Source of the DNA: Candidatus Gastranaerophilales bacterium | GTDB taxonomy: Bacteria; Cyanobacteriota; Vampirovibrionia; Gastranaerophilales; Gastranaerophilaceae | Length of the DNA: 64,000 nt | Direction of reading: 5' to 3' | NCBI GenBank assembly: GCA_944324845.1 | Contig: CALUXX010000003.1 | Coordinates: 62,001-126,000 of the forward strand | In this document: one piece after another, positions 22,091 through 42,939 of the stretch | Position numbering within the stretch: position 1 is the stretch's first letter | Layout of the letters: every line of letters starts with the position of its first letter | Position numbers and translations under genes: made by a program | Notes under the pieces: model-generated | What the model saw: the letters and a program-made list of their open reading frames with translations, nothing else | Told to the model about the DNA's origin: nothing | Databases searched by the model: none

Positions 22091-25000
22091 TTATAATCTC
22101 CAGTTCAAGCCACCTTGGCAAACAACACCGGCTCTACCCATGCTTCTGAAGGTTGCTTGAGCATACATATCTAATCTATCAGAGAATGATTTTGTCATAC
22201 CTAAAGCATATTGTACATAACCTTCTGATAGTCTTACATTATTCAAATCAACATTTCCAGCTCGTCCATCCAGACCGCCAAAGAAGTTCCAAGCGTATGA
22301 TACTTGTGCATATGCACTCCAGTTTTCTTTTTGATATATGAAGTTCACGTTAGGTGCAATATTTACACCATTCAAGAAGCCGGTCATCATGTGCATATTA
22401 CCATAATCACTGTGGAAGTTTTGTTTTCCAAACATATTATATGCCAATGTAATTGCCGGTTGAATCTTGAAGTTATGCGTAATTGGAATATCATAAGCTG
22501 TCTTACTTGCTAAACCTGCAAAGTATCCAAATGCGTTTTCTGAATGACCAGCAACATCCATATCATTACTATAGATACCTGCATTAATCAAGGCAGATTC
22601 AATAAACTTGCCTCTCATCCAACTAGACATGAAACCAATTTGTGCTCCGTTTTGATATGCACTAACTCCATTGAATGTCTGGTGTCCGCCAGTATATGCA
22701 ATGTAGCCTGTTGGTACCCAAGACCATCCACGTCTTAAGCGTTTAACTCCAAAGTCTGCACCAACAATCATACCCCAAGAATTGTTACGAACTTTGTCTA
22801 AACTGTTATTAAACTTAAATGTTTCAAAGTTACCAATTGCCTCTACCCAGACTTCACTTTCACGCATTGTTCTATCATAGCTTGCTGTACCTTCAATCAA
22901 TGCAGTTCTGTTTCTGAACATATCGCCATAACTTGGGCTATATCTTCTAATTTGTGCCTTATTGAACAATGAATCATTAACTGATAATTGGTTCAAATAT
23001 GCAGCAGCTGTTGTTACTTGACCTCTGAATACTTGTGGGTTAAATCTTGACAAGTCTAATGAGTAACTTCCATCATTTGCTGATGAAGCATTTAATTTAT
23101 AGTAACCAATCGGTGTAAAGATTTCTTTGTCGGTACTTGTAAATGTAATTTCATCACCAATCTTATCAGAATCAAATACCTTACCTAATCTTATATGCTT
23201 ACTTATAGGAGCATCTGAACCTAATATATCACCATTTAATTGGAAATCTGAAATGTTAATTACACCAGCTTCATCTTTCGTTGATACTGAAATTGTATTA
23301 GCAGTAAATGAATCTGATGTAGCTTTTCCATCAACTCTTGCATTGATATCGATTGCAAAATCAGCTTGTCCATCGCCATCTTTTCCATTATTTACTACCA
23401 AACTATCTATTGTATTCTTAGTACTTTCTCCGTTTATCATATTCATAAAACCAGATGTATTCAAACGGATTTTATCTGTAGTTTGTGTCATTCCTGCCAT
23501 TGATAAATAATTCAATTTAGATGTATCATCAATAGATAATGCACCACCTGTTACACCAGTACTCTTACCGCCAATGGTTAAGGTTGAATTGTTCTTAAGT
23601 GACATACTTCCTGATGCAATCTTACTACCTTCAGTTTCCATTACTAATGTTGAATCGTCTAGCTCAACATTACCACCTGTTTGAACATAATTACCTTCAG
23701 AATTTGTAATCTTTGTTAGGTCATCAGAAATATACAATGTACCACCTGCAACTTCTAAATTACCGGTAATAACATCATTATTTCCATCAAGACGTACAAC
23801 TGTGTCTTCACCTTCAATAGCAAGTGTCGCATTTTTCTCAACTGTTATTGTTGATGCTTTATCAATATCACCGCCTGTTACTGTGTAATCATTACCAGCT
23901 CGTAATGTAAAGTCACTTTCGGTCATCGTTAAATCAGATTTATTTTCTGCTGAATTGTTAATTTCTAAACTACTATTAGTTAGATTTAATCCACCACCAG
24001 AAATTACACTATCAGGAGTTGCTAATACTAATTTTGAATTTTCTAAGTTAACTTTTCCACCTGATTGATTATATTTAACTTTATCTGTTGTAGTTCTTTC
24101 AAAGTCTTTTAGTGTCATTTCACCATCTGATACATTGATACTACCTTCGATAACATCTTCTGTTCCTGATAATGAAACTTTTCCACCTGATTGGTTCAAT
24201 GTTGCATCTTCACCTAAACTGATATAAGCATCATATGTAATTTCACCATCTGATACATTTAAGCTACTTGAATCTTCTAATGAAATTTCTGCACCACCAG
24301 TAACTGTTCCACCTGATACATTTACAGAACTTGTATCTTTTGCAGTAATTTCTGCTCCTTCTGTAACTACAGCAGTTCCACCAATATCTATACTGCTATT
24401 ATTATCAATATTTACTACTGCATCACCTTTTATTGTACCTGCAGTCATTGCAAGTTCACTATCCGGAGTGTCGCCGCCAATATTTACAACACCACCTGAA
24501 ATAACGTCATTTTCGTTATTCATTGTGAAACCTTGACCTTTTACATATGTTTCGCCGCCTGTTTGTGTGAATACGCTTTCAGGGTGCTTTTTATCCATTG
24601 AATCAAGAACTAATGTTCCGTTTGATATCGTCAATGAACCCGCTAAATCATCAGTCTCACCATCTAATACTAATGAACCGCCTGATACTTCAATTCCACT
24701 TCCTTTTGATACATTTACTGATGCTTCTTTATCTACTTGACCTCTGCCAATTACTAATGTAGCCGGATCTGCAACTGTTCCGATATTTAATGTACCACCT
24801 GATACTCTATCTTTTTCGTTGTTCAATGTGAACTTAGTATCTAAAAGAGTTGTTGTTCCACCGGTTTGTTTGTAAACTGCTGATTCAGATTTTGAAATAT
24901 CCTTAATAGTTAAATTTCCACCTGCCATATTTAGGGTACCATTATAGGTATCATCACTATTCAAGGTCATTTCACCACCGTTTTGGTTTACAGTTCCTCT

Positions 25001-28000
25001 ATTACCTATATTTATTACGGCAGTTTCATCGACTACACCATTTTCTTCTACATTTAAAGTACCTGCATCATTTAAGTTTACTGTTGCTGCATCACTTATT
25101 GTACCATCTGTTAATACAACTGTACCTCTATCATTAACATTGATTGTGGCTTCATCAGTTATTGCTCCGCCATCTATTGTTAATGTACTGTAATCATCCA
25201 TATTTACAGTTGCACCTAATGCAATTTTTCCATCTGTAACATTCATTGTTGATTCATTGTTCATGTTTACAACTGCATTATCTGTTATAGAACTGCTGTT
25301 CATTTGGAAACTGCTTTGATCTTTTAAGGTTATTACTGAATTAGAATTAACTTCGCCATCTGTCATTTCCATCTTGGCGTCATCTCTTAAGTTTACTTGC
25401 GCACCTTCTGAGATTTCACCACTTGTCATTGTGAAACTACTATTATCCTCAAAGTTAAGAATTGATCCATTTGTTATATCACCATCTGACATATTCATCT
25501 GTGATTCATCACTGAAATCTAATACTGCCTTGTCTGTAATCTCACCGTCTTTCATGTTCATCTGTGATGAATCTTCAAATACCAGATGCGCCTCATTTGA
25601 AATTTCGCCATCGGTCATATTAAATTTAGATGTATCTTTTACTGTTACCGTTGCACCATCTGTAATCTGACCACCTGACATATTTATTGAACTGCTATTA
25701 TTTACTTTTACTTGAGTACTTGATGATATTGTACCTTCCGCAATATTGAATTCACTATTTGCAACCTCACCTCCAACATTTACAGTACCACCTGAAATCA
25801 TGTCATTTTCATTGTTGAACGTAAAACCGGTACCTGTAATATTGGTTGTTCCGTCTGTTTGTATATATGTGCCAAACTGTCCTTTGGTTACTGAATCTAA
25901 GTTTACTGTGCCTTTTGATAAGTTGATATTACCTTCAATTTTGTCTTTACTGTTTAATGAAAGTTTTCCGCCTGTTACGTTAATTGTACTATCCTTAACA
26001 ATGGTCGTATCTGTATCAGCCCCTACTGAACCTTTTGATATTGTTAATGTTGATGATTCATCCGCTGTTCCGACAGTTAAAGAACCACCGTTAATCTTAT
26101 CTTCTGTATTGTTCAAATCAAATGTTGAACCGGTAATTAAAGTATCGCCACCTGTTTGTACAAATTCTGAATTTTCTGATTTCTTAACACCATCCAATGA
26201 TAAACTACCACCAGACATATTATATGAACCATTGAATGTATCAGATTTATCAAGTTCTACAGAACCACCTGTTTGATTTACAACACCGTGTTCACTTAAG
26301 ATCATATTGGCATCAGAATCAAATGTACCGCCACTTATATTAAATCTTCCTTGATCATCAATATTAAGAGTTGCACCATCATTGAAAGTTCCATCTTCCA
26401 TATTGAATGTAGATCTATCTGTCAAATTAACACTTGCAGTACCGGTTACTGTGCCATTTTTCATATTCAAAACGCTGGTATCTGTTAGATTTACACTAGC
26501 ACCTGATTTTATAGCACCATTGTTCATATTCATCACTGCTTCATGTTCAAGGTTCACACTAGCATCATCTGAAACTGAACCGCCATTCATATTAAATATA
26601 CCTTCATTTGATATATTTAAGCCAGCTCCTGATGTTATTTTACCTTTATCCATGGTCATTGATGAATTTTCAGTAATATTAACTTGAGCTCCATCTTTTA
26701 TTGTACCATTTGACATTTCAAATGATGATGTATCTTCAAAATTCAACACCGCATCATCAGAAATTTCTCCACCAGACATTGTCATACTTGAACTATCTTC
26801 AAAGTTTACAACTGCCTTGTCTGTAATTTCACCATCAGTCATATTCAAGTTACTTGAATCTTCAATGTTTACTGTAGCTCCTGATGTTATTGAACCGCCT
26901 GATACATTTAATGTACTATCATTATCTACCCTTACATTTGCTGTTGATGAAATTGAACCTTCTGACAATGTTAAATCACTACCAGGTGTTGTTCCGCCAA
27001 CAATTACTTTTCCACCTGATATATTATCGTTTTCATTATTTAAATCAAAACCATTTCCTGTGATAAATGTTTCACCACCTGTTTGTGTAAACGTTCCAAA
27101 TTCACTTTTTTCTGCTGAATCCAGGTTTAATTTTCCTGATGATATATCTAAATTACCATCTATTGTATCTTCACTATCTAAAGTTAAATTACCACCTGTT
27201 AAACTTATTGTACTTCCTTGAACTATCGTAGTATCTACATCTTTTGATACTGTACCATTAGATATCTTCATATTGGAAATATCATTAACATCACCAACAG
27301 TTAATGAACCACCTAAAATCATATCTTTGGCATTATTCAAGTCAAAACCAATACCTGTAACTTTTGTATCGCCACCTGTTTGCTTTAATACACCTAAAGG
27401 ATCTTTATTCACGCCATTAAGAACTAAATTTCCTGATGATAAATTGATTGTTCCTTTGTATGTATCTGCAGAATTTAATGATAATTTACCACCTGTTTGG
27501 TTTATTGTTGCATGCTGATCTAATACAATGTTTGCATCTTCTGCAACTTCGCCGCCTTTTAAATTGAATGAACTTTGTGAATTTAGATTTAGGTTTGCAC
27601 CTTCAGCTATCATTCCATTATCCATATTAAATTCGGCTCTGTCTTCTAATGTAACAGTTGCGTTCTTTGTTATATTGCCGTTTTCCATATTCAAAACGCT
27701 GGTATCGCTAAGATTTACTTCTGCGCCACCTTTTATTGCTCCGTTTTCTATGTTCATTACGGCTTCATTATCTAAATTTATCTGTGCACCATCTGATATA
27801 ATGCCTTGACCAATGTCTATTGTACTTGAATTTGATGCATTAACTACAGCATCATTAGTAATCGTACCTTTATCCATTGTAAAGTGAGAATTATTATCCA
27901 AGTTTACAGTAGCACCATCGGTTATTATTCCTTCTGCCATTTCAAAGCTACTTGTATCTTTGAAATTCAATGTGGCTCCATCTGTAATGGTACCATTATT

Positions 28001-31000
28001 CATTATAATTGCACTGCCTTTATCCACAGTTACAACCGCTGATGAAGAAATTGTACCGCCATCAATTCCTAAAGAACTTCCAGCTACAGTACCGCCAACA
28101 TGAACTGTTCCGCCTGAAATTGTATCATTTGGATTGTTTAATGAGAAACCATTACCGGTTATTGATGTGTCACCACCGGTTTGTGTAAATGTACTGCCTT
28201 CATCTTTTGATATTGAATCTAATTCTAATTTTCCACTTGAGATATTTAAGTTCCCTCCAAGTGTATCAGTTTCTCCATCTAATGATAAATTACCACCATT
28301 TACAGTTACCGTACTGTCTTTTGATATAATTGTTGTTGCATCTTTGTCAATTGTACCTTTTGAAATTGACATATCTGCTTTATTTGTATCGGTTCCAACT
28401 ATGAAATATCCGTGACTGATATTATCATCTTCATTATTTAAATCAAAATCATCACCTGTTACTGTAATTGTACCGCCAGTTTGCTCTAATTTTGAATTTG
28501 AATTTTTGCCTATTGAATTTAATGTTAATGAGCCTGATGATACTGATATATCACCATTAATTGAACCTTCTTCATTAAAGGTTACGCTACCTCCATTAAC
28601 TTTTAATTTAGATAATTCATTCAAATTAACAATCGCATCTCCACCTATTGTTCCCTGTGATACGGTTAAGTCTGAAGATACTTTTCCATTACCAATATTT
28701 ACAGTTCCACCACTGATATTATCTTTAGCATTGTTTAAATCAAAGCCTTTTCCAACAATATTTGTGGTACCTTTCTTCTGGGTAAATACACCATTTTTCT
28801 CATCTACATTATCCAGTGTCAATTCTCCGCTGGTCATATTAATATCACCATCCCAAGAATCTTTACTATCAAATGTTAATGTTCCACCTGCTAGATTGAT
28901 TTGAGAATTTTCATTCAAATCAATACGAACATCACCTTCAACAGTACCTTCTGATATTGTGAAGTCTGACTCTTTTAATCCATCGCCAATTGTCAATGAG
29001 CCTTTTGAGATACTGTCTTGATAATTATTTAAATCAAATCCTGTTCCTGTTACTGTTGTTGAACCGCCTGTTTGAATAAATACACCTTGTGAATTTTTAT
29101 CTACATTATCAAGTGCTAATGTTCCGCCTGACATGTTAATATTACCATCAAGATTATCTGATTTATCTAATGAAACATTTCCGACTCCAGATATTCCTAA
29201 TGTTGCATTTGAATTAATATTAGTAGTTGCATTAGCAGCAATAGTACCGCCACCAACACTTACCACTGTTCCTACAGTACCATTACCGATATTTATAGTA
29301 CCACCGGTTATACTATCATATACATTATCAAGACCAAATGATGTACCTGTTATTGTTGTTACACCACCTGTTTGATTTAACACGCCGTCTTCACCTTTGG
29401 TAACTGATTTTAAATTCAATTCACCATCTGATAAATTAATTTCGCCATTATATTTATCATCACTACCAAGGCTTACTGTTCCACCTGAAATATTTAATTT
29501 ACTATTTGAATTGATATTTGTTACTGCAGATGACTGAATTACACCTTTTGATACACTTACTTCACTTGCAACTGTGCCATCACCTACATTAAATACACCG
29601 GCAGAAATACTATCTCCTGAATTATTTAAGTCAAAACCCATTCCTTTAATAGTTGCAGTACCACCTGATTGTGTAAATGTACCGCCTGGATCTTTACTTA
29701 AAGAATCAAGACTGAATGTTCCACCTTTTATATCAATATTTCCGTTTATAGTACTTGTCTTACCTAATGCAACTTTACCACTGCTATCAACTGTTAAGGT
29801 TGAATTTTGGTTAAGATTTACACTTGCATCTTCGGTTATAGTACCTTTTGAAACTGTTAAATTTGATTGGCTTCCACCATCTCCAATATTTAATGTGCCA
29901 CCGACAATTTGATCATCTTCATTATCAAGATTTAAGCCGGTTCCATTAATATTTGTTGTACCTTTTAACTGTGATAAAACACCATTTTTACTATTAATAT
30001 CGTTTAATGTTAATGTACCGCCATTAACTTCAACTCCACCATTCCAAGTGTCACCTGAATCTAAGGTTACATCACCATTACCCATTACTGTAATAAATGA
30101 ACTTGAATTCAATTTTACAGTCGCATCTTCTTCAATAGTACCTTCTGATACTTCTAAAATTGTAGAGTTTGAGCCTGAGCCTACGGTTAAGGTTCCGCCT
30201 GAAATCTTATCTCCTGCATTGTTTAATTCAAATTTTGAAGATGTAATATCTACATTACCACCTGTTTGATTTAATGTTCCTTGAGCGTTTTTATTTATAG
30301 CGTCAATACTTAAATAACCACCCTCAGTTACATTTACATCACCATACCAAGTGTCACCTGAATTTAAGTACATATTACCACCGGCTACATTAACTTGAGC
30401 ATTTTTATTAATGTTTACCTGTGCACCTTTTTGAATTGTACCTTGTGATAATGTCAAACTTGTATCTGAACCATTACCTATTTGTAATAAACCACCGTTT
30501 ATTAAATCTTCTGAATTATTTAAATCTAAACCTTCTCCTGATACTGTAACAGAACCACCTGTTTGGGTATATATACCATCTTCATTCTTTGATATACCAT
30601 CTAATTTGGCAGTACCATCAGAAACAGTTAAATTACCATTCCAAGTATCTGTTGAATCTAATACTAAATCTCCACCACTAACTTCTATCGTAGCATTTTT
30701 GGTTAAATCAACTTTTGCTCCACTTGCAATAGCACCTTCTGACATTGTTAATTTTGAAGATGATGTACCATTTCCAATAGTTACATTTCCACCTTCGATA
30801 TAGTCAAGTTTATTGTTTAAATCAAATGTTCTACCTGTAATAACAGTATCACCACCGTTTTGGTAGAATACTCCACTAGATGATTTTGTTGCATCTTCAA
30901 GACTTAAATCACCCTCGGAAATATTTACATTTCCATTCCAACTATCAGAAGAATCTAATGTTACATTTCCTCCTGTAATATTTAAGTTTGAATAATTATT

Positions 31001-32593
31001 GATATAAACATCTTCATTCTTTGTTATTGTACCATTGGATACTGTTAATGTTGATGATACTGAACCATCACCAATATTTAATGTTCCACCATCAAGTAAA
31101 TCTTCTGATGAATTCAAATCAAAAGAATTACCGGCAATATTAATTGTTCCGTCTGTTTGCTTTAATGCACCAGTTTTTTGAGTGTTCTTAATGCTTAATG
31201 TTCCACCCTGAACATTTACATTACCAGCCCAAGTATCAGTTGAATCAAGTGACATTGAACCACTTTTTATATCAACACTTGAACCCCCTGAAATATTTAC
31301 ATCAACTTCTGATGCGACAGAACCACCTTTTAATGTTAATTTTCCATTACCACTATCGCCACCAATATTCAAATTACCGTTTTTAATAGCATCATTGCTA
31401 TTGTTCAATACAAAACTGTCGCCGGTAATATTTGTTGTTCCTCCATTTTGAACAAAAGTTGATGACATAGATTTTTCGGCATTATTAAGATTCAATGTGC
31501 CATTTGCAACATCAAGATTACCATTAATAATATCTTTGTTATCAAGGCTTACATTTCCACCCTTAAGTTTTAATGAACTACCCTCACCAACATTAACATT
31601 TGCAGCTGAATCAATAGTACCTTCCGTTACCGCCAGTTCACCGGTTGTAGAACCATCACCAATATACAAGTCACCACCAGTAATACTGTCTTCTGAATTA
31701 TTTAAGTCAAAACCGGTACCGGTAATTATTGCATCGCCGCCTGTTTGCTTGTATGTTGCGTTGAAAGTTTTTGAAGCTGAATCTAATTTTAATTCTCCAC
31801 TAGATAATGTTACATCACCTCTATAGGTATCTCCGGCATCTAAAGTAACATTTCCACCCTTAACTTCCATTGAACTGTTTTCAAAAATATTTACAGTTGC
31901 ACCAGAACCAACATAACCATGGCTGACTCCCAATGAGCCACTGGTTGCATTTTGACCAATATTTACAGTACCACCAGTAATACTATCTCTATCACTTGCA
32001 AGATCCATGCCTGATCCAGTAACATTCATAGTACCGCCAGTTTGGATTATATGAGATGTCGTCGATGGGGATCTTGTAAATGAATCAAATTCAAGTAATC
32101 CATTAGATATATTTATTTCACCATTGATACTATCTCCGGTATCTATTAAAACTTCGCCTCCTGTAATTGCAAGAGTCGCATCTTGTACTATTGAAAGATT
32201 TACATCACGTCTGATAAAACTATTTTTCGCAATCGTCAATGTTCCGTCTTTATCAGCTGTGACATTACCGCTAGTAGCAATTAACAAACCATTCGTAAGA
32301 GAAGATGAGGTGTAATCGTGAACGGTTAAATCCCCACCATCATGAACGTATAATGTATTTTCACCACCACTATACCAATATGGTTCTGAATCGTGAATAT
32401 CATATATAATTCCGGTTGAACCATCTACACCATTAGCATACATTGTTGAGGTAACGTCTATTATTGTACCGTAGATAGATGGAGACGTAGGTGTGGTAGC
32501 GTCATCTTCGGCTGCCATAACTATATGTCCTGTACTACTTAATAACGTAGCACAAGCTGCAATAGTTAATAATCGTCTAAATTTCTTCTGCAT
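22091..32593 (-). CDS. Giant repeat-containing autotransporter adhesin
   Basis: This 3500-aa protein has a Sec signal peptide (basic MQKKFRR, hydrophobic core, cleavage likely after VMAA near residue 28). A very long Ser/Thr/Asn/Gly-rich passenger follows that is almost free of Cys, then a C-terminal barrel of about 280 residues (alternating hydrophobic strands such as WVEAIGNFETFKF and NFIYQKENWSAYAQVSYAW). The passenger has about 20 long units of roughly 100 aa with the signature GFDLNNxxDxISGG, and four blocks of about 19-aa units (ITDGATVNLxDxSxFNM). The pattern predicts a parallel beta-helix stalk, which would act as a surface adhesin. AAGGGAA precedes the ATG, and a TTGAAT-16-TATAAT promoter lies 46-74 nt upstream. 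The last residue is Leu rather than the usual Phe or Trp. Confidence 0.92.
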   Translation of the reverse strand: MQKKFRRLLTIAACATLLSSTGHIVMAAEDDATTPTSPSIYGTIIDVTSTMYANGVDGSTGIIYDIHDSEPYWYSGGENTLYVHDGGDLTVHDYTSSSLTNGLLIATSGNVTADKDGTLTIAKNSFIRRDVNLSIVQDATLAITGGEVLIDTGDSINGEINISNGLLEFDSFTRSPSTTSHIIQTGGTMNVTGSGMDLASDRDSITGGTVNIGQNATSGSLGVSHGYVGSGATVNIFENSSMEVKGGNVTLDAGDTYRGDVTLSSGELKLDSASKTFNATYKQTGGDAIITGTGFDLNNSEDSITGGDLYIGDGSTTGELAVTEGTIDSAANVNVGEGSSLKLKGGNVSLDNKDIINGNLDVANGTLNLNNAEKSMSSTFVQNGGTTNITGDSFVLNNSNDAIKNGNLNIGGDSGNGKLTLKGGSVASEVDVNISGGSSVDIKSGSMSLDSTDTWAGNVNVQGGTLSIKNTQKTGALKQTDGTINIAGNSFDLNSSEDLLDGGTLNIGDGSVSSTLTVSNGTITKNEDVYINNYSNLNITGGNVTLDSSDSWNGNVNISEGDLSLEDATKSSSGVFYQNGGDTVITGRTFDLNNKLDYIEGGNVTIGNGTSSSKLTMSEGAIASGAKVDLTKNATIEVSGGDLVLDSTDTWNGNLTVSDGTAKLDGISKNEDGIYTQTGGSVTVSGEGLDLNNSEDLINGGLLQIGNGSDTSLTLSQGTIQKGAQVNINKNAQVNVAGGNMYLNSGDTWYGDVNVTEGGYLSIDAINKNAQGTLNQTGGNVDITSSKFELNNAGDKISGGTLTVGSGSNSTILEVSEGTIEEDATVKLNSSSFITVMGNGDVTLDSGDTWNGGVEVNGGTLTLNDINSKNGVLSQLKGTTNINGTGLNLDNEDDQIVGGTLNIGDGGSQSNLTVSKGTITEDASVNLNQNSTLTVDSSGKVALGKTSTINGNIDIKGGTFSLDSLSKDPGGTFTQSGGTATIKGMGFDLNNSGDSISAGVFNVGDGTVASEVSVSKGVIQSSAVTNINSNSKLNISGGTVSLGSDDKYNGEINLSDGELNLKSVTKGEDGVLNQTGGVTTITGTSFGLDNVYDSITGGTINIGNGTVGTVVSVGGGTIAANATTNINSNATLGISGVGNVSLDKSDNLDGNINMSGGTLALDNVDKNSQGVFIQTGGSTTVTGTGFDLNNYQDSISKGSLTIGDGLKESDFTISEGTVEGDVRIDLNENSQINLAGGTLTFDSKDSWDGDINMTSGELTLDNVDEKNGVFTQKKGTTNIVGKGFDLNNAKDNISGGTVNIGNGKVSSDLTVSQGTIGGDAIVNLNELSKLKVNGGSVTFNEEGSINGDISVSSGSLTLNSIGKNSNSKLEQTGGTITVTGDDFDLNNEDDNISHGYFIVGTDTNKADMSISKGTIDKDATTIISKDSTVTVNGGNLSLDGETDTLGGNLNISSGKLELDSISKDEGSTFTQTGGDTSITGNGFSLNNPNDTISGGTVHVGGTVAGSSLGIDGGTISSSAVVTVDKGSAIIMNNGTITDGATLNFKDTSSFEMAEGIITDGATVNLDNNSHFTMDKGTITNDAVVNASNSSTIDIGQGIISDGAQINLDNEAVMNIENGAIKGGAEVNLSDTSVLNMENGNITKNATVTLEDRAEFNMDNGMIAEGANLNLNSQSSFNLKGGEVAEDANIVLDQHATINQTGGKLSLNSADTYKGTINLSSGNLVLNGVNKDPLGVLKQTGGDTKVTGIGFDLNNAKDMILGGSLTVGDVNDISNMKISNGTVSKDVDTTIVQGSTISLTGGNLTLDSEDTIDGNLDISSGKLNLDSAEKSEFGTFTQTGGETFITGNGFDLNNENDNISGGKVIVGGTTPGSDLTLSEGSISSTANVRVDNDSTLNVSGGSITSGATVNIEDSSNLNMTDGEITDKAVVNFEDSSSMTMSGGEISDDAVLNFEDTSSFEMSNGTIKDGAQVNITENSSMTMDKGKITSGAGLNISNEGIFNMNGGSVSDDASVNLEHEAVMNMNNGAIKSGASVNLTDTSVLNMKNGTVTGTASVNLTDRSTFNMEDGTFNDGATLNIDDQGRFNISGGTFDSDANMILSEHGVVNQTGGSVELDKSDTFNGSYNMSGGSLSLDGVKKSENSEFVQTGGDTLITGSTFDLNNTEDKINGGSLTVGTADESSTLTISKGSVGADTDTTIVKDSTINVTGGKLSLNSKDKIEGNINLSKGTVNLDSVTKGQFGTYIQTDGTTNITGTGFTFNNENDMISGGTVNVGGEVANSEFNIAEGTISSSTQVKVNNSSSINMSGGQITDGATVTVKDTSKFNMTDGEISNEAHLVFEDSSQMNMKDGEITDKAVLDFSDESQMNMSDGDITNGSILNFEDNSSFTMTSGEISEGAQVNLRDDAKMEMTDGEVNSNSVITLKDQSSFQMNSSSITDNAVVNMNNESTMNVTDGKIALGATVNMDDYSTLTIDGGAITDEATINVNDRGTVVLTDGTISDAATVNLNDAGTLNVEENGVVDETAVINIGNRGTVNQNGGEMTLNSDDTYNGTLNMAGGNLTIKDISKSESAVYKQTGGTTTLLDTKFTLNNEKDRVSGGTLNIGTVADPATLVIGRGQVDKEASVNVSKGSGIEVSGGSLVLDGETDDLAGSLTISNGTLVLDSMDKKHPESVFTQTGGETYVKGQGFTMNNENDVISGGVVNIGGDTPDSELAMTAGTIKGDAVVNIDNNSSIDIGGTAVVTEGAEITAKDTSSVNVSGGTVTGGAEISLEDSSSLNVSDGEITYDAYISLGEDATLNQSGGKVSLSGTEDVIEGSINVSDGEMTLKDFERTTTDKVKYNQSGGKVNLENSKLVLATPDSVISGGGLNLTNSSLEINNSAENKSDLTMTESDFTLRAGNDYTVTGGDIDKASTITVEKNATLAIEGEDTVVRLDGNNDVITGNLEVAGGTLYISDDLTKITNSEGNYVQTGGNVELDDSTLVMETEGSKIASGSMSLKNNSTLTIGGKSTGVTGGALSIDDTSKLNYLSMAGMTQTTDKIRLNTSGFMNMINGESTKNTIDSLVVNNGKDGDGQADFAIDINARVDGKATSDSFTANTISVSTKDEAGVINISDFQLNGDILGSDAPISKHIRLGKVFDSDKIGDEITFTSTDKEIFTPIGYYKLNASSANDGSYSLDLSRFNPQVFRGQVTTAAAYLNQLSVNDSLFNKAQIRRYSPSYGDMFRNRTALIEGTASYDRTMRESEVWVEAIGNFETFKFNNSLDKVRNNSWGMIVGADFGVKRLRRGWSWVPTGYIAYTGGHQTFNGVSAYQNGAQIGFMSSWMRGKFIESALINAGIYSNDMDVAGHSENAFGYFAGLASKTAYDIPITHNFKIQPAITLAYNMFGKQNFHSDYGNMHMMTGFLNGVNIAPNVNFIYQKENWSAYAQVSYAWNFFGGLDGRAGNVDLNNVRLSEGYVQYALGMTKSFSDRLDMYAQATFRSMGRAGVVCQGGLNWRL
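24180..28060 (-). repeat. Super-repeat: blocks of ~19-aa units alternating with pairs of long units
   Basis: Three blocks of about 10-12 short units (roughly 27500-28060, 26280-26960 and 24990-25730) and a fourth of about four units (24180-24460) each follow the second long unit of a pair. Every block begins with a long-unit tail such as GTISSSAVV. The first three end in an NQTGG or NQNGG boundary, the fourth in NQSGG. This order implies duplication of a whole [two long units plus short block] module. Confidence 0.8.
28080..32100 (-). repeat. Array of about 14 long (~100-aa, ~300-bp) beta-helix units
   Basis: Fourteen successive units share, in order, GGxLNIGDG, SxGTIxxxAxVN, GGxVTLDSxDTWNGN, SxGxLxLD, FxQTGGxTxITG and xFDLNNxxDxI. 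The copies are diverged at the DNA level, so the array is old and should be stable. Six more long units lie between the short-repeat blocks farther along the protein. Confidence 0.85.
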
Positions 32594-35047: not shown

Positions 35048-35548
35048 TTATTGCCTAAATCTATCCGAAAGATAACTTAATATTGCCCCGCCAATTTCTT
35101 CATTAGGATCAAAAGGTTGATTTGGGTTATTTGGTTTTAGGGAATTTTTAATCAGCATATTAACCAAAGGTCCAAACGCATCAGGAACTTGTATTTTCCT
35201 GTAAATTCCAGCCAAGAAAGTTTGAATATTTGGAGATTCTGTATTATTAAACCTTGCAAATATCGGATATAATTTCTCAATCCCTTTAACTCCTGAATCG
35301 TGAAGTCTATTCATAACATAAAGAGCTTCTGTCACTTGGGCTTCGTTATTGGAATGAATTAAAATATCAGAAAGATAAGGAAGTGCATTTTCTCTTTGAT
35401 TTACAAAATAATCAACTTCATTATTATCAAATGTACAATAATTTTTTCCATTAGAAGGTAATTGGCAAGATGCACAAATATATGGTTGATTTTGCCTTTG
35501 ATATTGGTATGAATTTTGATAATTTACTATCGGAATTTGTTGTATCAT
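35048..35548 (-). CDS. Hypothetical protein, helical-repeat-like
   Basis: This 166-aa protein has a Tyr/Gln/Asn-rich N-terminus, a CASCQLPSNGKNYC cysteine cluster near residues 25-38, and then amphipathic helices (ALPYLSDILIHSNNEAQVTEALYVM) like HEAT/ARM repeats. I do not recognise the family. GGAG precedes the ATG. It is the last gene of the three-gene operon that starts at 37759, 17 nt after the preceding gene, so it is expected to share the upstream riboswitch control. Confidence 0.75.
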   Translation of the reverse strand: MIQQIPIVNYQNSYQYQRQNQPYICASCQLPSNGKNYCTFDNNEVDYFVNQRENALPYLSDILIHSNNEAQVTEALYVMNRLHDSGVKGIEKLYPIFARFNNTESPNIQTFLAGIYRKIQVPDAFGPLVNMLIKNSLKPNNPNQPFDPNEEIGGAILSYLSDRFRQ

Positions 35549-35565: not shown

Positions 35566-37062
35566 TTATGAATACACATAAGGTGGTCCGTTTTTAACTT
35601 CGAATAATATATTTTCTGCCATAGATTTTAACTCTTCTTTTGTGCGATTACCGCTATCTACTTGTTTGTAAAATTCATCAACAAGCGGAGAAATTGCAGC
35701 ATCTTTTTTGGATTTAAAATTACGCAATTCTGTTGAAACAAGTCGTTTTTGAAGTTCTAATTCGGTTTCTGCATTAATCTTTTTTACCTGAACTTCTTTT
35801 ATCGCATCACCTGCTAGTTTTCCGCCATAACTTATCGCACTTATTCCGGTTATTCCCAAAAATAATTGTTTGAATTGAGGATTTTCGGTATCTATTAACC
35901 AGTTATAGAAAAACGCCCGATAATCATCCACAAAAGAATTAAATGCAGGTCGAGGAGTTCCATCTCCGCCAATATTTGGATTTACTTGCGTTGTTGAGGC
36001 TTTCATTTTGGATAAAATCCTATTTAAAAATTCTGTTTTTTCTTCAGATTTATTCCACTTTAATTTATTTATTTGTGTTGATATAAATTCTTCTGCTTTA
36101 TCTGAGCCATCAAGCGACAGGAACATGTATTCAAGCGTATCTTTATCGGTATCTTTAGGATACTCCCCTGATGAGTCAACTATTGATGAAATTGTATCTT
36201 TTATTTTTTGCAAATTTTGCTGTAAATGAAGTTTGCCTTTGGTTAAATTTTTCAATGACAAATACCCAAGCCCCACAATAGATACAGCCGTTCCAACACC
36301 AAGCAAAACATTTCCTAAATTAAATGACTTTTTATTTTTGTTTGTATTTTTATCTGATGAAGTAAATGACATCAAATATTTTGACTTACCAAAATTAGGC
36401 AAAATTGGTTCTTCATCCGATACTAAATATTTTTCAAAATCATTTGCATACTTAGAAAGCATACTTCTTATAATTTGAATTTTTCCAGAAAAAGATTGTG
36501 TTTCTACATCAATTAAATTTTCTTGAAGATTTTTTTGAATATCAGCTTCTTTTCGTTTTACCCAAATATCTTTATAACCGTCAAAAAATGTTTTTCCCAT
36601 AAATGCCATTGCAGAAAGTGCCAAAACTCCACCTGCTGCAATAAATGTTTTTTTATTAGGACTTTGCACCATTTGATAAATTACTTGATATGTTTCTTTG
36701 CTAAGATTAACATTTCTGGTTAATGTAGGAAGCCACTTTTCTTTAGGCAAATCCTTAGCCGCTTTTGCACTTCTGCTAATCAATGCCGTAGCCATTGTAA
36801 TTACTGACATTACGCCAAGTGCGATAGCGCTTAACGGCAACAATTTTTTATCAATAATTCTGTTGTCTGAATACAAATTTTCAGGCATTTGTGTATTACT
36901 TGAGATTAAATAAGCATTTCGTGAACTTGATAAATTATTTATTCCAACATTATTATTAACCACAACACCTTCTTTTGTGCTGATTAAATTTTTCCTTTGA
37001 GAATTTGTTAAGTTCCTCTGCTGCCTTATATTTTCCGAATCATTCAACGGATTTATGTACAT
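35566..37062 (-). CDS. Hypothetical multi-pass membrane protein
   Basis: This protein of about 498 aa has hydrophobic segments near residues 78-96 (LSAIALGVMSVITMATALI), 140-160, 250-270 and 395-415, separated by long Lys-rich helical stretches. No known domain is visible. The frame also has an ATG at 37074, but AAAGG directly abuts that codon. At 37062 the same site is 12 nt away, so I prefer the latter. It overlaps the end of the preceding gene, which indicates translational coupling. Function is unknown; two neighbours with Cys motifs suggest a shared envelope-associated complex (inference). Confidence 0.78.
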   Translation of the reverse strand: MYINPLNDSENIRQQRNLTNSQRKNLISTKEGVVVNNNVGINNLSSSRNAYLISSNTQMPENLYSDNRIIDKKLLPLSAIALGVMSVITMATALISRSAKAAKDLPKEKWLPTLTRNVNLSKETYQVIYQMVQSPNKKTFIAAGGVLALSAMAFMGKTFFDGYKDIWVKRKEADIQKNLQENLIDVETQSFSGKIQIIRSMLSKYANDFEKYLVSDEEPILPNFGKSKYLMSFTSSDKNTNKNKKSFNLGNVLLGVGTAVSIVGLGYLSLKNLTKGKLHLQQNLQKIKDTISSIVDSSGEYPKDTDKDTLEYMFLSLDGSDKAEEFISTQINKLKWNKSEEKTEFLNRILSKMKASTTQVNPNIGGDGTPRPAFNSFVDDYRAFFYNWLIDTENPQFKQLFLGITGISAISYGGKLAGDAIKEVQVKKINAETELELQKRLVSTELRNFKSKKDAAISPLVDEFYKQVDSGNRTKEELKSMAENILFEVKNGPPYVYS

Positions 37063-37759
37063 CTTTTTCGTCATCCTTTTTTGTTTTGTGCGTTATATTT
37101 TTATATAATTTGTGAATGTATGTTTTAAGTTCAAATAAACGTTTTGCTTCTTCTGCTTTTTGTTCTTCATCTTCTGTTTCAAAAGTGCCAAATACAAAAA
37201 ATGAAAACTTTAATTTCTTTTTCAAATTTGAAACAAATTTTGAAAAATTTTCCTTTATCGCCGTATCCATTTCTCCATATATTGCAGCCAATTTATCGGA
37301 TATATCCGTAAATTTCTGTTTTATATTTTGGGTCAGATTTACAAAATTTGTCGGAAAATTTTGTAAAAATTGAAGAGGTTTGGCAACAAAATTTATAAGG
37401 ATAAAATTTGTTGGAAGTGCGATAATTTTAGGCATTTTATTATTTATAAACGCTGAAATATCCATCAATCTTTGATGAGTCGCTGTTATATTTTTTTGAA
37501 AATCAACAAGTGCTTGGATATGACTTTCTTGAGCTGCTTTCGCACTTTCTCGTGCCTGTTTTTGCGCTCTTAACATTGCTCCTATTGCAGCACACTGATT
37601 ATATGACATCTCACCAACATTTCGTGGAATATCCCTTTTACTTGTAGAATTACCACCTGCCATTCCACTACAAATAGGACAGGCGCCTAATGGCAAACCA
37701 TGTGGACATGTACCCGGCTTTGCAGCTTGTGTTCTTACAGGTGCTGATTTTATTGACAT
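37040..37759 (-). CDS. Hypothetical Cys-motif protein under riboswitch control
   Basis: This 239-aa protein has an N-terminal TCPHGLPLGACPICSGMAGG segment, a zinc-ribbon-like Cys/His cluster at about residues 17-34. A helical region (SYNQCAAIGAMLRAQKQARE), a hydrophobic stretch (IIALPTNFILINFVAKPL) and a charged coiled-coil tail follow. I do not recognise the family. The start codon is preceded by AGAGGA 7 nt upstream, and that SD lies inside the terminator hairpin of the upstream riboswitch. First gene of a three-gene operon. Confidence 0.78.
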   Translation of the reverse strand: MSIKSAPVRTQAAKPGTCPHGLPLGACPICSGMAGGNSTSKRDIPRNVGEMSYNQCAAIGAMLRAQKQARESAKAAQESHIQALVDFQKNITATHQRLMDISAFINNKMPKIIALPTNFILINFVAKPLQFLQNFPTNFVNLTQNIKQKFTDISDKLAAIYGEMDTAIKENFSKFVSNLKKKLKFSFFVFGTFETEDEEQKAEEAKRLFELKTYIHKLYKNITHKTKKDDEKDVHKSVE

Positions 37760-37784
37760 AAAAAAATCCTCTAACTTTAGAGGA
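37760..37784 (-). terminator. Expression-platform hairpin containing the Shine-Dalgarno site
   Basis: On the minus strand TCCTCTAA and TTAGAGGA form an 8-bp stem with a 2-nt loop, followed by T7 and then the ATG. The SD (AGAGGA) is the right arm, so the hairpin could both terminate transcription and hide the ribosome site. Confidence 0.7.
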
Positions 37785-37897
37785 CACTACAAAAATACCT
37801 GCTATATTCATATCGCACGTGAATATAGTTATTTTTGAGCATTCCGACTTTTACGGCTGCGGCTACAGTTGGAGATCTTCACTCCATTTCCTCTTAT
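37761..37897 (-). ncRNA. Probable cobalamin-type (cobalamin-II-like) riboswitch
   Basis: Read on the minus strand, the leader has the short-form cobalamin core in order: GAGGAAA; a P4-like stem TGGAG/CTCCA closing a TGAAGAT T-loop; an L5-like stretch GTAGCCGCAGCC; GTAA; and the B12-box-like AGTCGGAATGCTC, whose CTC can pair with the first GAG. Downstream, a 9-bp hairpin (CTATATTCA/TGAATATAG, plus 37802-37828) has loop bases TGCG complementary to CGCA in L5, as in the L5-L13 kissing loop. A final hairpin (plus 37767-37784) with a T7 tract precedes the ATG. The ligand is inferred from similarity to env8-type elements. Confidence 0.62.
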
Positions 37898-37901
37898 TTA
37901 G

Positions 37902-37930
37902 ATATTATTTTAAGCATAATATTATGTCAA
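37902..37930 (-). promoter_or_regulatory. Promoter of the riboswitch operon
   Basis: On the minus strand TTGACA (plus 37925-37930), a 17-nt spacer and TAATAT (plus 37902-37907) place the transcript start at about 37895, exactly at the edge of the aptamer. Confidence 0.75.
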
Positions 37931-37956: not shown

Positions 37957-39258
37957 TTATGTATTAAATTCTTTTACAAATTCATTTACCCATTTTATCA
38001 ACTGCGTAATTTCGTAAGGTTTTGGTAAATATAAATCCGCTCCAGTATTTAATACTAATTCCTTATCGTGAATTATAGAGGTTACTATTACTTTTGAATC
38101 TTTAAATTTTTCTTCTTGTTTTAATCTGTAACATAAATTCAAACCGTTTTTCTTTTCTAAATCTCCCGCATCAACTATAATAAGTGCAGGAACTTCTTCT
38201 TCATCAGGAATTTTATATTCATTAATTATTTCAGTTTGATAACCTTGAAGTTTTAATATGGTATTCAATAAAATACTTAAAGCTTCATCTGTTTCAAAAA
38301 TAACAATTCGGTTGTTATATTCAGATTCTAAAACAGAATCTTCGGCTGAAATTTTCGGACGCTCGATAAGATAATTTGAGCGATTTGGATTATCCGCAAG
38401 ATGATGAACATGCACTAATGAATTGAGAACTTGCGTTGTATCTTTGTATTTTGCAAATTCATTTGTTATAACCCCTATCGTTGAGTGAACAAAATTTGCA
38501 CGTCTTCCTGCATATTCATCCCCCTGCATTATCATATAGCCTCTATCCAAATCATGTTCTGCATAAAATTTGTTTGCCACTGAATCAAATGCAAATATTA
38601 AAAATCTCGCTAATCTCTCTGCTTTTATCGGATCTGTTATTACGAGAAATATATTCTCTGAAAGTTCACCAATATAATCGTTTTCATTCAACGAAGCCTG
38701 AATTATTGCAACGTAAGTTTGTAATAATTTGTCTGATGCAAGTTGTGTATATGCCTGTTTGTAACTTTCAAAATTTTCAATACTTATATACAAAACAGCC
38801 CAAGGTTTATCTTCCGACAATTTACGTTTTAACGCTCGTAAACTATAGTTTTTGTTCGGCAAAAACTGTTTTACGCTAAGATTAGATTCAAATTCTCTTC
38901 GTAAATGTGCAGTCATTCGAACTTTAAATTCTTCTGAATTAACAGGTTCTGATAAAAAATCATCAGCTCCGCTTTCCAAAACCTTTATCCTATCATTAAA
39001 ATCTGCCGATTTTGACATCGCAACAATTATCGGTCGCATATTATAAGTTAAGGCTCGAACTTGCTTGCAAAAATCAGATAAATCATCGTCAAAACTATCC
39101 GATATAATTATTAAATCGGGTTCCTTGTCCTGAATTAATTTTAAGGCCGTTATTAAATCCTTTGAAATTATTACCTTATTTGTCGGTGATTCCAAAAGTT
39201 TTTTATATTTCGTAGAAAGTTCCAACCTTGTATCAATTATTAATGTTACTGATTGCAT
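37957..39258 (-). CDS. Double-receiver response regulator with degenerate GGDEF-like domain
   Basis: This 433-aa protein has an N-terminal receiver (1-120, acceptor Asp54), a central domain (about 145-290) with the fold pattern of GGDEF but LSENIFLVI where GGDEF should be, and a C-terminal receiver (about 315-430). The first receiver has Glu in place of the conserved Lys (FLSEPV). The second keeps Asp in IIVDAG and Lys in LPKP. It is therefore probably a signalling hub and not a cyclase. It overlaps the end of the kinase gene at 39246 by 13 nt, so they are a cognate pair. No DNA-binding domain is present. Confidence 0.82.
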   Translation of the reverse strand: MQSVTLIIDTRLELSTKYKKLLESPTNKVIISKDLITALKLIQDKEPDLIIISDSFDDDLSDFCKQVRALTYNMRPIIVAMSKSADFNDRIKVLESGADDFLSEPVNSEEFKVRMTAHLRREFESNLSVKQFLPNKNYSLRALKRKLSEDKPWAVLYISIENFESYKQAYTQLASDKLLQTYVAIIQASLNENDYIGELSENIFLVITDPIKAERLARFLIFAFDSVANKFYAEHDLDRGYMIMQGDEYAGRRANFVHSTIGVITNEFAKYKDTTQVLNSLVHVHHLADNPNRSNYLIERPKISAEDSVLESEYNNRIVIFETDEALSILLNTILKLQGYQTEIINEYKIPDEEEVPALIIVDAGDLEKKNGLNLCYRLKQEEKFKDSKVIVTSIIHDKELVLNTGADLYLPKPYEITQLIKWVNEFVKEFNT

Positions 39259-39998
39259 TTCATCCTCGCTTGTTCTTCTATCATTACTATCGGGAATGAC
39301 ACCGTGAAAGTAATTTCACTTAATTCAGAATTTTCACCCCTAGGTAGGGATTCCACTGAAATACATCCGCCCATCTTTTCTACAAGACTTTTCGTGATGT
39401 ATAAGCCTAATCCGCTACCCTGAACTCTTCTTGTTAATGGATTGTCAATTCTCGCAAATTTTGTAAATATTTGCTCGTAATCATTCTTTTCAATTTTTAA
39501 TCCGGTATTTGTTATCTTTATAAATACATTATTATTCATTATACCGGTTGTAATAGTTGTTTTAAATTCACCATATGAATATTTCGCACTGTTTTCAATT
39601 AAATTAGTCATGATTTGCTCAAAACTGTCCTTATCAACAAATATCGCCGGCAAATCATCCCTATAATAAAATTCGAAAACCTGATTTGGATACTGGCTTT
39701 TTACAACTGAAATAACCTGCTGTATCGGAAGTTTGATATTTATCTCTTGCTTAACAAATTTTTGATTGGCAGATTTTAACCTCGTTACTGATAACATATT
39801 CTCAACTAGATTAATTAATCTGTTTGACTGCTCCTCGATAATCTTTAAAAAATGCTTCTTACTCTCATCATCTAATTTGTCCCAAGATGATAGCATTGTC
39901 TGCGAAAATCCGCGAATTGATGTCAAGGGCGTCCTTAATTCGTGACTTACGGTTGATATAAAATCTTCATATTTTTGTTCAATATTTCTTTCATCCAT
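39246..39998 (-). CDS. Minimal soluble histidine kinase
   Basis: This 250-aa protein consists of only HisKA (phosphoacceptor His19 in SHELRTPLTSIRG) and HATPase domains (NLIENSAKYS, TNTGLKI, GSGLGLYI). It has no membrane segment and no input domain, so it must receive its signal from a partner protein. TATAAT (plus 40005-40010) lies 6 nt before the ATG with no Shine-Dalgarno site, implying a leaderless mRNA. The 3' end overlaps the double-receiver gene. Confidence 0.9.
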   Translation of the reverse strand: MDERNIEQKYEDFISTVSHELRTPLTSIRGFSQTMLSSWDKLDDESKKHFLKIIEEQSNRLINLVENMLSVTRLKSANQKFVKQEINIKLPIQQVISVVKSQYPNQVFEFYYRDDLPAIFVDKDSFEQIMTNLIENSAKYSYGEFKTTITTGIMNNNVFIKITNTGLKIEKNDYEQIFTKFARIDNPLTRRVQGSGLGLYITKSLVEKMGGCISVESLPRGENSELSEITFTVSFPIVMIEEQARMKCNQ

Positions 39999-40033
39999 AT
40001 TTGTATTATAACAGATAGTTATTAAATAAATCT

Positions 40034-40072
40034 ATAAAAAATTTAGACGGCTCCATTTTTGAAACCGTCTAA
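40034..40072 (-). terminator. Terminator of the HEAT-repeat gene
   Basis: On the minus strand TTAGACGG and CCGTCTAA (plus 40065-40072 and 40043-40050) form an 8-bp stem with a following T-rich run. Confidence 0.75.
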
Positions 40073-40103
40073 TATATTATAATAAACAACCATTAGTTAT
40101 CTA

Positions 40104-40961
40104 TTAAAATGTGCCTGCAGGTTTTTTCTGAGGTGTTGCCCCAGGAATAGACTGCCAATTTGCTGCCATAATCTTTTTGAAAGATTTTAATGCAGTATCT
40201 TCTAGTTCGCCAAGTTCTTCAGCTTCCATAATTAGTTCTCTTAATGGCATCAATGCTCTTGGATCTCTAAGAACTCCTAATGCTGCTGCTGCACCGGCTC
40301 TAACTAATTCGTTTTCTGATGTGTTTTTCATAACGTCTATCAATGCAGGAACTGCTTTTGTATCATTTAATTTACCTAATGATGTTACTGCATAAATTCT
40401 TACGTTAACCCATTCATCATAAAGCATATTGATAATCTTATCTACAGCTTTTTTATTTCCGATTTCGCCTAATGCTCTTGTTGCATCACATCTAACGTTA
40501 ACTTTTTCGTGATCTAATGATGCAATTAAAGCGTCTGTAGCTACATCACCAATTTCGATTAAAGCATCTGTTGCTGTTATACAAACTTGAGGATTTTCAT
40601 CATTTAATGATTCAACAAGCGGTTCAACAACGATTTCTCCGCCTAAACGACCTAACGCACGAGCTGCACGTACACGTACATCAACGTTACGATCTTCTCG
40701 TAAAGATTCAATTAGGTGAATTGTTGCTGATGAATCCCCTAATTCGCCTAGCGCTCTTGCTGCATATAATCTTACCGATCCGTTTTTATCATGTTTTAAA
40801 ACGTCGATTAATGGCTCAACCGCTTTGGAATCACCCATTTCACCTAAGATACGTGCTGCGTTGTATCTAACTTTTTCTGAGTTGCTTGTTCTTAGGTCAC
40901 TAAGTAATTCATCAAATGTTTTCTTCACCTGTTTTTTCTTACTACTTACACTAATCGTCAT
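40104..40961 (-). CDS. HEAT-repeat (PBS-lyase-like) protein
   Basis: This 285-aa protein is built of about seven 31-residue HEAT/EZ-type repeats, for example VRYNAARILGEMGDSKAVEPL and VRLYAARALGELGDSSA. The repeat class includes phycobilin-lyase-like proteins common in cyanobacteria, but no phycobiliprotein genes exist here, so a general protein-interaction role is more likely. The protein is soluble, with a short Lys-rich N-terminus and a Pro/Gly tail. GGAGG lies about 6 nt before the ATG. It sits upstream of the kinase/receiver pair, with a terminator between them. Confidence 0.88.
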   Translation of the reverse strand: MTISVSSKKKQVKKTFDELLSDLRTSNSEKVRYNAARILGEMGDSKAVEPLIDVLKHDKNGSVRLYAARALGELGDSSATIHLIESLREDRNVDVRVRAARALGRLGGEIVVEPLVESLNDENPQVCITATDALIEIGDVATDALIASLDHEKVNVRCDATRALGEIGNKKAVDKIINMLYDEWVNVRIYAVTSLGKLNDTKAVPALIDVMKNTSENELVRAGAAAALGVLRDPRALMPLRELIMEAEELGELEDTALKSFKKIMAANWQSIPGATPQKKPAGTF

Positions 40962-41283
40962 TACTTTCCTCCGACATTACTACAATAATTCACACCTACT
41001 CTTATATAAAGATTTTCCCCGGGAAATTATTGCCATTTTCGTTTCTTTTTATTAATTTTTGTTTACAATTCATGATTTGGTTGTTTAGTTTTTAGTTGTA
41101 TCTGGTCAGATGATTAAGGGTAAATCTGACACTTATTTATTCTGTACTATTATTATAACATATTTTTTATTATTTTTAACCTAATAATGTTACTAATTAT
41201 AAGAATTATGTTATTTATTTTTTATAGAATGCTTGAAATTCAAATATAATCGAAAATTTTAGTTTACAATTCTTAAAATTTGA
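40962..41283 (-). promoter_or_regulatory. Long leader of the HEAT gene
   Basis: This 322-nt gap has no supported gene. On the minus strand a TATAAT (plus 41152-41157) would start a leader of about 185 nt that includes a 7-bp hairpin (GTCAGAT/ATCTGAC, plus 41105-41111 and 41124-41130). A closer TATATA near 41005 could give a short leader instead. A GTTTACAATTC sequence occurs twice (near 41060 and 41264). The rest is AT-rich with nothing evident. Confidence 0.35.
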
Positions 41284-42939
41284 CTACTCACACTTGATAG
41301 TAATAACAAACTCCGTACCCTTGCCAACTTCGCTATATACCTTGATTGTACCGCCGTGCTTATCTATTATCTTTTGGCTTATTGCAAGCCCCAATCCGGT
41401 ACCTACACCTACTCCCTTTGTCGTATATCCTGCCGTGAAAATTTTCTCTAAATCTTCTCTTGGTATGCCACGTCCATTATCTTTTATTTTTACTATCAAA
41501 TTACCTTCACGATACTCTGTCGTTATTGTTATTTTTCCTTCTGTTTCTATTGCCTGACAAGCATTTACCAATATATTGGTAAATACCTGATTTAACATAT
41601 TCGGATAACATTTTACCGGTGGAATATTTCCATATATTTTTTCTATTTCTATTTTATTTTTTGTTTCGTGACGAATTAAATCCAATGTTAAATCAATTTC
41701 TTTATTTATATCTGCTTTTTGTAATTCTGCCTCATCTAATCTTACAAATTTTTTCAAGGAAATTACGATGTTACTTATTCTCTGAATTGCTTCTTTATCT
41801 ATTGAATTTATATCCATAAGTGTTTGTCTTATGTTTTCATCTTCTATTTGAGGCAGCAATTTTAAAATCAAGGAATTGTTTGATTTTATCGATGCAACAG
41901 GGGTATTGATTTCGTGTGCTACTCCTGCTACCAACTGACCTAATGATGCCATTTTTTCAGCATTTATCAACTGTAATTGAGTTTCTTTTAATTCATTCAG
42001 TGCTTTTTTCAAATTCTTAACGTTTTTAACGTTCTTTTGATACAATTCTGCCCTTATTATCGCACTGCCTAATTGAGATGATACAGCGTCAAGAATTTCA
42101 ATTTCTTCGTTCAATTCTCGTTTTTGATAACTCAACAAAACCAAAACCCCTATCATCTTTTGGGTATAAAATACAGGAACTATAACACGTAAGACTGATT
42201 GTTTAAATGATTCAGCTTCAACGCATTCTAATAGTGAATAACTTACAGAAATTTTTCCTGATTTTAATTTATTCATTGCATAGTTATCAAAAGTAATATT
42301 TTGAGTTTTTAAAGTATTTTCACCATAAACTTCTTCTATCTTAAAACCGTTACCATCTGTTGACGCATAATAAACCCTAAAACACCCGAACATTATTGCC
42401 AATTCTTTTAAGGCAGAATTTAAAATTACAGAGATATCTACCGATTCTCTTATGATATTTGAAACCTTATTTATTAAAGCAATTTTTATCGCTTGAGATT
42501 GCGCTTTTTGCCTAATTTTCTGAAGTTCATCATTTTCTTCTGCAAGTTTATTTAATTTAATTTTAACCGCATCATTTTCTCGCTTATTACTTTCTAAAAG
42601 CACATCAGAACTAACATCTACCAAACGAATTATGGTATATTGACCACGCTTTAAGGTTGTCAAATCATAATATGAAATTCCACCGGAATCCGACAAATAT
42701 GAAACTCTTGCTGAAAAAGGTTCCTTTGATACTATCGCTTGAAAAATAGGAGAATATAAATCGACATTTTCACTATCTACAGGACACATATCAAAATTTA
42801 TCTGGTGGGCAAACTGCCTTATCCCGTAAAATGGCTTAAAAACACGACAAAATGCGCTGTTTTTAAATACAACCTCTTCATATTCCCTAACAACTATCAT
42901 TGGATCAAAAAATTGATTAAATAAATCAAACTTTTTCAT
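41284..42939 (-). CDS. PAS/GAF histidine kinase
   Basis: This 551-aa cytosolic kinase has an N-terminal PAS-like region (1-112), a coiled coil (115-150), a GAF domain (about 160-300), a second coiled coil, HisKA with His342 in GVAHEINTPVASI, and HATPase (NILVNACQAIE, DNGRGIP, GTGLGLAIS). The HEINTPVASI form is typical of bacterial kinases that sense through soluble domains. No response regulator is adjacent. TATAAT (plus 42946-42951) lies 6 nt before the ATG with no Shine-Dalgarno site, so it is probably leaderless. Confidence 0.92.
   Translation of the reverse strand: MKKFDLFNQFFDPMIVVREYEEVVFKNSAFCRVFKPFYGIRQFAHQINFDMCPVDSENVDLYSPIFQAIVSKEPFSARVSYLSDSGGISYYDLTTLKRGQYTIIRLVDVSSDVLLESNKRENDAVKIKLNKLAEENDELQKIRQKAQSQAIKIALINKVSNIIRESVDISVILNSALKELAIMFGCFRVYYASTDGNGFKIEEVYGENTLKTQNITFDNYAMNKLKSGKISVSYSLLECVEAESFKQSVLRVIVPVFYTQKMIGVLVLLSYQKRELNEEIEILDAVSSQLGSAIIRAELYQKNVKNVKNLKKALNELKETQLQLINAEKMASLGQLVAGVAHEINTPVASIKSNNSLILKLLPQIEDENIRQTLMDINSIDKEAIQRISNIVISLKKFVRLDEAELQKADINKEIDLTLDLIRHETKNKIEIEKIYGNIPPVKCYPNMLNQVFTNILVNACQAIETEGKITITTEYREGNLIVKIKDNGRGIPREDLEKIFTAGYTTKGVGVGTGLGLAISQKIIDKHGGTIKVYSEVGKGTEFVITIKCE

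Follow-up and report, generated by a model that had tools for sequence, protein, structure and literature searches.

Among the closest described systems, the env8 hydroxocobalamin riboswitch (PDB 4FRN) shares the short class-II core with the leader described here. Genetic evidence exists for a bulged kissing loop in another corrinoid switch, and in the Priestia megaterium metE corrinoid riboswitch the kissing loop stabilizes P13, with ligand leading to a terminator and the ligand-free state to an antiterminator (PMC10653944). The standard targets of cobalamin riboswitches are B12 transport and isozymes of B12 enzymes (PMC3766115). In the literature that we searched, no paper dealt with the riboswitches of the Gastranaerophilales-type group and nothing was reported on the group's B12 needs.

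We analyzed a 64,000-nucleotide window of the genome of a Gastranaerophilales gut bacterium, a member of a cyanobacteria-related group (hereafter the source genome; coordinates are positions in this window), in which a leader lies on the minus strand between a response-regulator gene (37957–39258) and gA (37040–37759). A cmscan search against Rfam matched this leader to RF01689 (AdoCbl-II) at 37905–37829 (minus strand) with a score of 48.1 bits (E = 1.5e-8), above the gathering score of 36.5 bits, and the match spans all 81 model positions. RF01689 occurs in a single copy in the source genome, and RF00174 has no match there. The locus is a real RF01689 member with a variant expression platform, and the identity of the leader RNA is secure; the Infernal comparison with the Rfam cobalamin models thus bears out the class-II cobalamin riboswitch that the original prediction had proposed.

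The promoter scan places a TTGACA −35 box at 37930–37925 and, after 17 nucleotides, a TAATAT −10 box at 37907–37902 (minus strand), a combination among the top-scoring of 18 promoter-like matches. The −10 box ends at 37902, 10 nt 5′ of GGAAA, and most related leaders carry the same promoter, with its spacing kept, about 10 nt 5′ of GGAAA. Judged from promoter spacing, the transcript should start at approximately 37896–37894, at P3, in agreement with the start at the aptamer edge that had been predicted. P1, the outer closing helix of the RF01689 model, was rejected for the source leader: the region shows mismatches relative to the Rfam outer helix, and P1 would be absent from the RNA because the −10 box takes its 5′ strand and the start is expected at P3. 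Leaders of nrdDG retain P1, as do some of the distant gA leaders.

Downstream of the aptamer, leader comparison and folding define the P13 hairpin (37828–37802, minus strand; 9 bp), whose loop is CGUGCGAUA, with CG(U)GCGAUA at 37819–37811. The linker UAUUUUUGUAGUG (37797–37785) is followed by an intrinsic terminator at 37784–37760, found by terminator scan, which consists of UCCUCUAA-AG-UUAGAGGA, an 8-bp stem (37784–37767), and then T7; it is the only minus-strand terminator-like site between 34900 and 38000. As had been predicted, the ribosome site lies inside the terminator, whose right arm UUAGAGGA contains the Shine-Dalgarno (SD) sequence AGAGGA (37772–37767), 7 nt 5′ of the ATG at 37759. 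A separate cluster, distinct from the riboswitch transcript, lies upstream on the same strand (37957–42939) and encodes a GGDEF-like response regulator, histidine kinases, and a HEAT-repeat protein.

The claim that the loop of a downstream hairpin is complementary to L5 was examined in a comparison set of 70 non-redundant leaders. In the source leader, GCCG of L5 (37863–37860, minus strand) pairs with CG(U)GC of L13, the next flanking position being a mismatch. Across the set the two loops change jointly: CUGCCG occurs with CG(U)GCAG, CAGCCG with CG(N)GCUG, UUGCCG with CG(N)GCAA, GUGCCG with CG(A)GCAU, and CUGGCG with CGC(N)CAG. The first flanking L5–L13 pair is Watson–Crick in 44 of 62 leaders compared with 25.4±3.5 after shuffling (0/20000), a signal that is weaker when each loop type is counted once (665/20000), and one L5–L13 pair is divided between AU (21) and UA (19) in the leader alignment. 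On alignment A2, 95.8% of the cells of the named structure are paired, and 11 pairs show double changes versus 4.9 after shuffling (0/500). P5 and P6 are invariant; the covariation comes from P3, P4, the kissing loop, and the terminator. The homologues therefore support both the P3–P6 core and the L5–L13 kissing loop of the RF01689 class, and the covariation expected of related leaders is present. Variation is also seen at L5 itself, where 5 of 80 gA loci have GCGCA and the others CCGCA, and several gA-operon aptamers (L076, L077, L083, L086, L140, L095, and L097) contain extra hairpins within the P6 loop.

With the outer helix lost from the leader and NrdJ absent from the source genome, the aptamer might be read as a degenerate relic without ligand response. 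We regard this as very improbable, given a score far over the gathering cut-off, a core in which many positions are unchanged across the 70 leaders, and a fixed promoter distance.

In the family, which comprises Gastranaerophilales-type gut bacteria, 174 of 191 genomes and 39 of 41 genera carry RF01689. Family copies outside the gA leaders precede nrdD-nrdG, encoding the class III ribonucleotide reductase, or btuB-btuC-btuD-btuF, L169, L171, L172, and L173 being further copies before one or the other; these neighbors are named from sequence. Because nrdDG and btuBCDF both lie under RF01689 in this clade, the aptamer class very likely senses cobalamin here, and the source leader presumably binds it. 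In another genus, RF01689 precedes a 94-aa orphan protein (L123, leader 4657–4734), a possible further cobalamin target.

Predicted folding of the source leader follows the order of transcription. Up to approximately nt 106 the predicted fold is the aptamer; at nt 126, once the linker and the terminator left arm have been transcribed, an antiterminator fold is favored (−32.3 versus −22.4 kcal/mol for the aptamer-constrained fold, energies that include neither kissing loop nor ligand); and with the terminator right arm transcribed, the terminator fold is best. In the antiterminator fold, AGAGGA (37894–37889), which forms the 5′ strand of P3 by MFE folding, pairs with UCCUCU (37784–37779), while an extended P13 takes the 3′ strand of P3 (CUC, 37839–37837), which together with the next bases can pair instead with the linker at 37797–37785. 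The predicted folds thus provide the mutually exclusive terminator and antiterminator of a transcription-terminating OFF riboswitch.

Among the 70 leaders, the pre-terminator MFE structure contains the antiterminator in all 70, the extension helix in 61, and P3 in none, and the full-length MFE structure contains the terminator in 46 and keeps the antiterminator in 22. The figure of 70/70 is not independent evidence, since most leaders share AGAGGA/UCCUCU, and the need to keep the SD would by itself preserve much of this pairing. Pairing between the aptamer 3′ strand and the linker is leader-specific, with a mean of −7.0 kcal/mol for a leader's own linker versus −4.5±0.2 kcal/mol for permuted ones (0/5000, 70 leaders), identifying the linker as a competitor for that strand. 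The evidence for 5′ strand pairing is thinner, the strand being mostly invariant; the informative cases are L024 (AUAAGGA, UCCUUA) and L119 (AAGGAA, UUCCUU), where changes in the aptamer strand are accompanied by changes in both the SD arm and the left arm.

Building on the elements demonstrated by computation (the aptamer, the kissing-loop covariation, the competing pairings, and the conserved operon), we propose that a minimal class-II switch lacking P1 and transcribed from P3 turns gA-gB-gC off in response to ligand. Without ligand, the linker would capture the 3′ strand of P3, and the freed 5′ strand AGAGGA would pair with the terminator left arm UCCUCU; with the antiterminator paired, no terminator would form, the SD would be free, and gA-gB-gC would be expressed. 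On cobalamin binding, the aptamer would be locked by P3 and the L5–L13 kissing loop, which would prevent the antiterminator, whereupon the terminator would form, stopping transcription and burying the ribosome site in the hairpin. We consider a class-II cobalamin OFF switch with an antiterminator drawn from the aptamer 5′ strand probable, and ligand-free ON and ligand-bound OFF would be its natural reading. The original prediction had suggested one structure acting on both transcription and translation; the predicted antiterminator fits this, with the ligand response and the OFF sign inferred. What our model adds is a putative antiterminator supplied by the 5′ strand of the aptamer itself, which spells out how transcription would be controlled. 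The leader would then be a compact switch whose aptamer carries a copy of the ribosome site that doubles as antiterminator, and one competition governs transcription and translation.

Control might also be exerted at translation only, with the kissing loop and hairpin hiding the SD and the T-tract being incidental. The SD lies directly within or after the P13 region in the nrdDG and btuB leaders of the family, and env8 acts on translation (PMC10653944, PMC10907184). However, most gA leaders keep a T-tract immediately 3′ of the stem, antiterminator and terminator are mutually exclusive in folding, and in at least one leader (L163, from another family) the terminator stands apart from the SD. 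A translation-only switch is hence unlikely, and we favor the terminator–antiterminator mechanism. Some deep-branching gA leaders (L003, L126, L128, and L130) keep the aptamer with a seemingly different platform that lacks the terminator–SD hairpin.

The operon genes are co-directional on the minus strand: gA is followed after a 35-nt overlap by gB (35566–37074) and then, after a 17-nt gap, by gC (35048–35548). The 239-aa gA product is zinc-ribbon-like, with a CPHGLPxGACPIC motif, a GEMSWNECAAIG motif, a helical remainder, and no transmembrane (TM) helix; C18, H20, C27, C30, and C56 are invariant. The gB product (502 aa) has four predicted TM helices, seen as four hydrophobic peaks, in two homologous halves (hhalign E = 3e-6); it has no convincing Pfam match, and its predicted structure (pLDDT 62) gave no meaningful fold match. 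The gC product (166 aa) is an ARM/HEAT-like helical repeat without TM helices, with ARM/HEAT-like matches only (E ∼0.1). Searches of all three against Pfam, NCBIfam, and PDB profiles returned only chance-level or coiled-coil matches, with no ATPase or TonB-receptor domain in profile searches and no homology to the FecCD permease, EcfT, or their partners in Pfam or PDB.

A gA profile scan of 84,980 genomes found 282 relatives, of which the best 80 were kept; their records are mostly named Gastranaerophilales, Melainabacteria, or unclassified bacteria. Among these best 80 of 282, the aptamer lies directly 5′ of gA in 80/80 loci, gB is next in 80/80, and gC follows in 78/80, the two exceptions being contig ends. 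In one genome from another family of the order, gABC likewise occurs with a terminator and a divergent aptamer resembling class II, and all gB matches in a class-wide sample fall within this order. Co-occurrence of RF01689 and gA gives a Fisher p of ∼2e-12, a significance inflated by the shared ancestry of the genomes. Genera g25 and g30 (six genomes; L122 and L164–L168) have gA-gC-gC′ and no gB. The gABC operon is thus uncharacterized and conserved across almost the whole family together with its RF01689 switch, as a cobalamin-linked operon had been envisaged. The cobalamin link of the proposed "envelope system" stands; its envelope part is conjectural, as four TM helices are predicted in gB but none in gA or gC, and gB is missing from two genera. 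Elsewhere in the window, a gene on the minus strand (22091–32593) encodes a 3500-aa protein with many short repeats and a C-terminal region resembling an autotransporter outer-membrane barrel.

We surveyed B12 genes in 80 family genomes, with absences resting on draft genomes and profile cut-offs; the importer survey covered FecCD, EcfT, and the TonB plug. NrdJ exceeds the cutoff in 56/80 genomes and the MetH core is present in at least one, whereas CobS, EcfT, and the MetH activation domain are found in 0/80, a FecCD (BtuC-type) permease in 9/80, and a TonB plug in 10/80. B12 synthesis is apparently lacking in the family. In the source genome, profile searches gave no NrdJ, FecCD, or EcfT match, and a TIGR03960 B12-binding radical SAM protein was the sole B12 protein detected. 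gA is present in 54 of the 56 NrdJ genomes, the other two being 72% and 89% complete, and genomes without gA mostly lack NrdJ. A strict gA–NrdJ link was rejected, as gA is still present in 16 of the 24 genomes that have no above-cutoff NrdJ match. Four gA-less genomes were examined: three carry the riboswitch in front of nrdDG and one in front of btuBCDF. In genus g26, neither gA nor the switch occurs in the seven genomes listed, and NrdJ is absent from the two g26 genomes surveyed. The g25 and g30 genomes surveyed have NrdJ and lack BtuC.

Most family members thus have a B12-dependent enzyme, CobS is found in 0/80 and the tested importers are rare, yet a B12-switched operon is kept. For the operon as a whole we infer a function tentatively: the pattern of gA, NrdJ, and importers fits a role in B12 acquisition, and cobalamin acquisition or handling is our leading guess, weighed against which are the gB-less operons of g25 and g30 and a source genome without NrdJ. 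The same gB-less operons weaken the idea that gB is simply a permease. It is possible, though doubtful, that gABC, with gA and gC as invariant core, is an acquisition system unrelated to Btu, ECF, and BtuM in an order mostly without TonB receptors and B12 synthesis. A second reading, ranked behind acquisition and competing with that role but not with the regulatory mechanism, is that gABC spares or replaces a B12-dependent function under cobalamin shortage, in the way that nrdDG backs up NrdJ. Isozymes of B12 enzymes make up a standard class of regulon (PMC3766115), nrdDG carries the same RF01689 switch, gA and gC lack TM helices, and gB is absent from some genera; against this, gA, gB, and gC match no enzyme fold or family, and gA occurs in NrdJ-bearing and NrdJ-less genomes alike. 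Such a sparing role appears rather unlikely, and with acquisition as the leading guess gA, gB, and gC become three genes to test for B12 acquisition or management in the group.

Compared with known systems, gABC shares with BtuBCDF, ECF-CbrT, and BtuM the expected regulation by a B12 riboswitch, which the family's btuBCDF indeed carries, but no detectable sequence family. The source leader has the core of RF01689 AdoCbl-II, including T-loop P4, P5, P6, P3, and the kissing-loop geometry; the model has a weakly conserved P1, which the source leader lacks because its transcript starts at P3. The L5–L13 kissing loop serves as output signal in env8 (PMC10653944, PMC10907184) and would do so in the source leader, but env8 hides its ribosome site at P13 and acts on translation, whereas in the source leader P13 is followed by a separate SD-bearing terminator. 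The logic of kissing loop, terminator, and antiterminator proposed here is that of P. megaterium metE, in which the antiterminator is the 3′ side of P13, in contrast to the aptamer 5′ strand that would serve in the source leader. As other models also use aptamer bases (PMC10653944), the putative source antiterminator would be a variation on a known principle.
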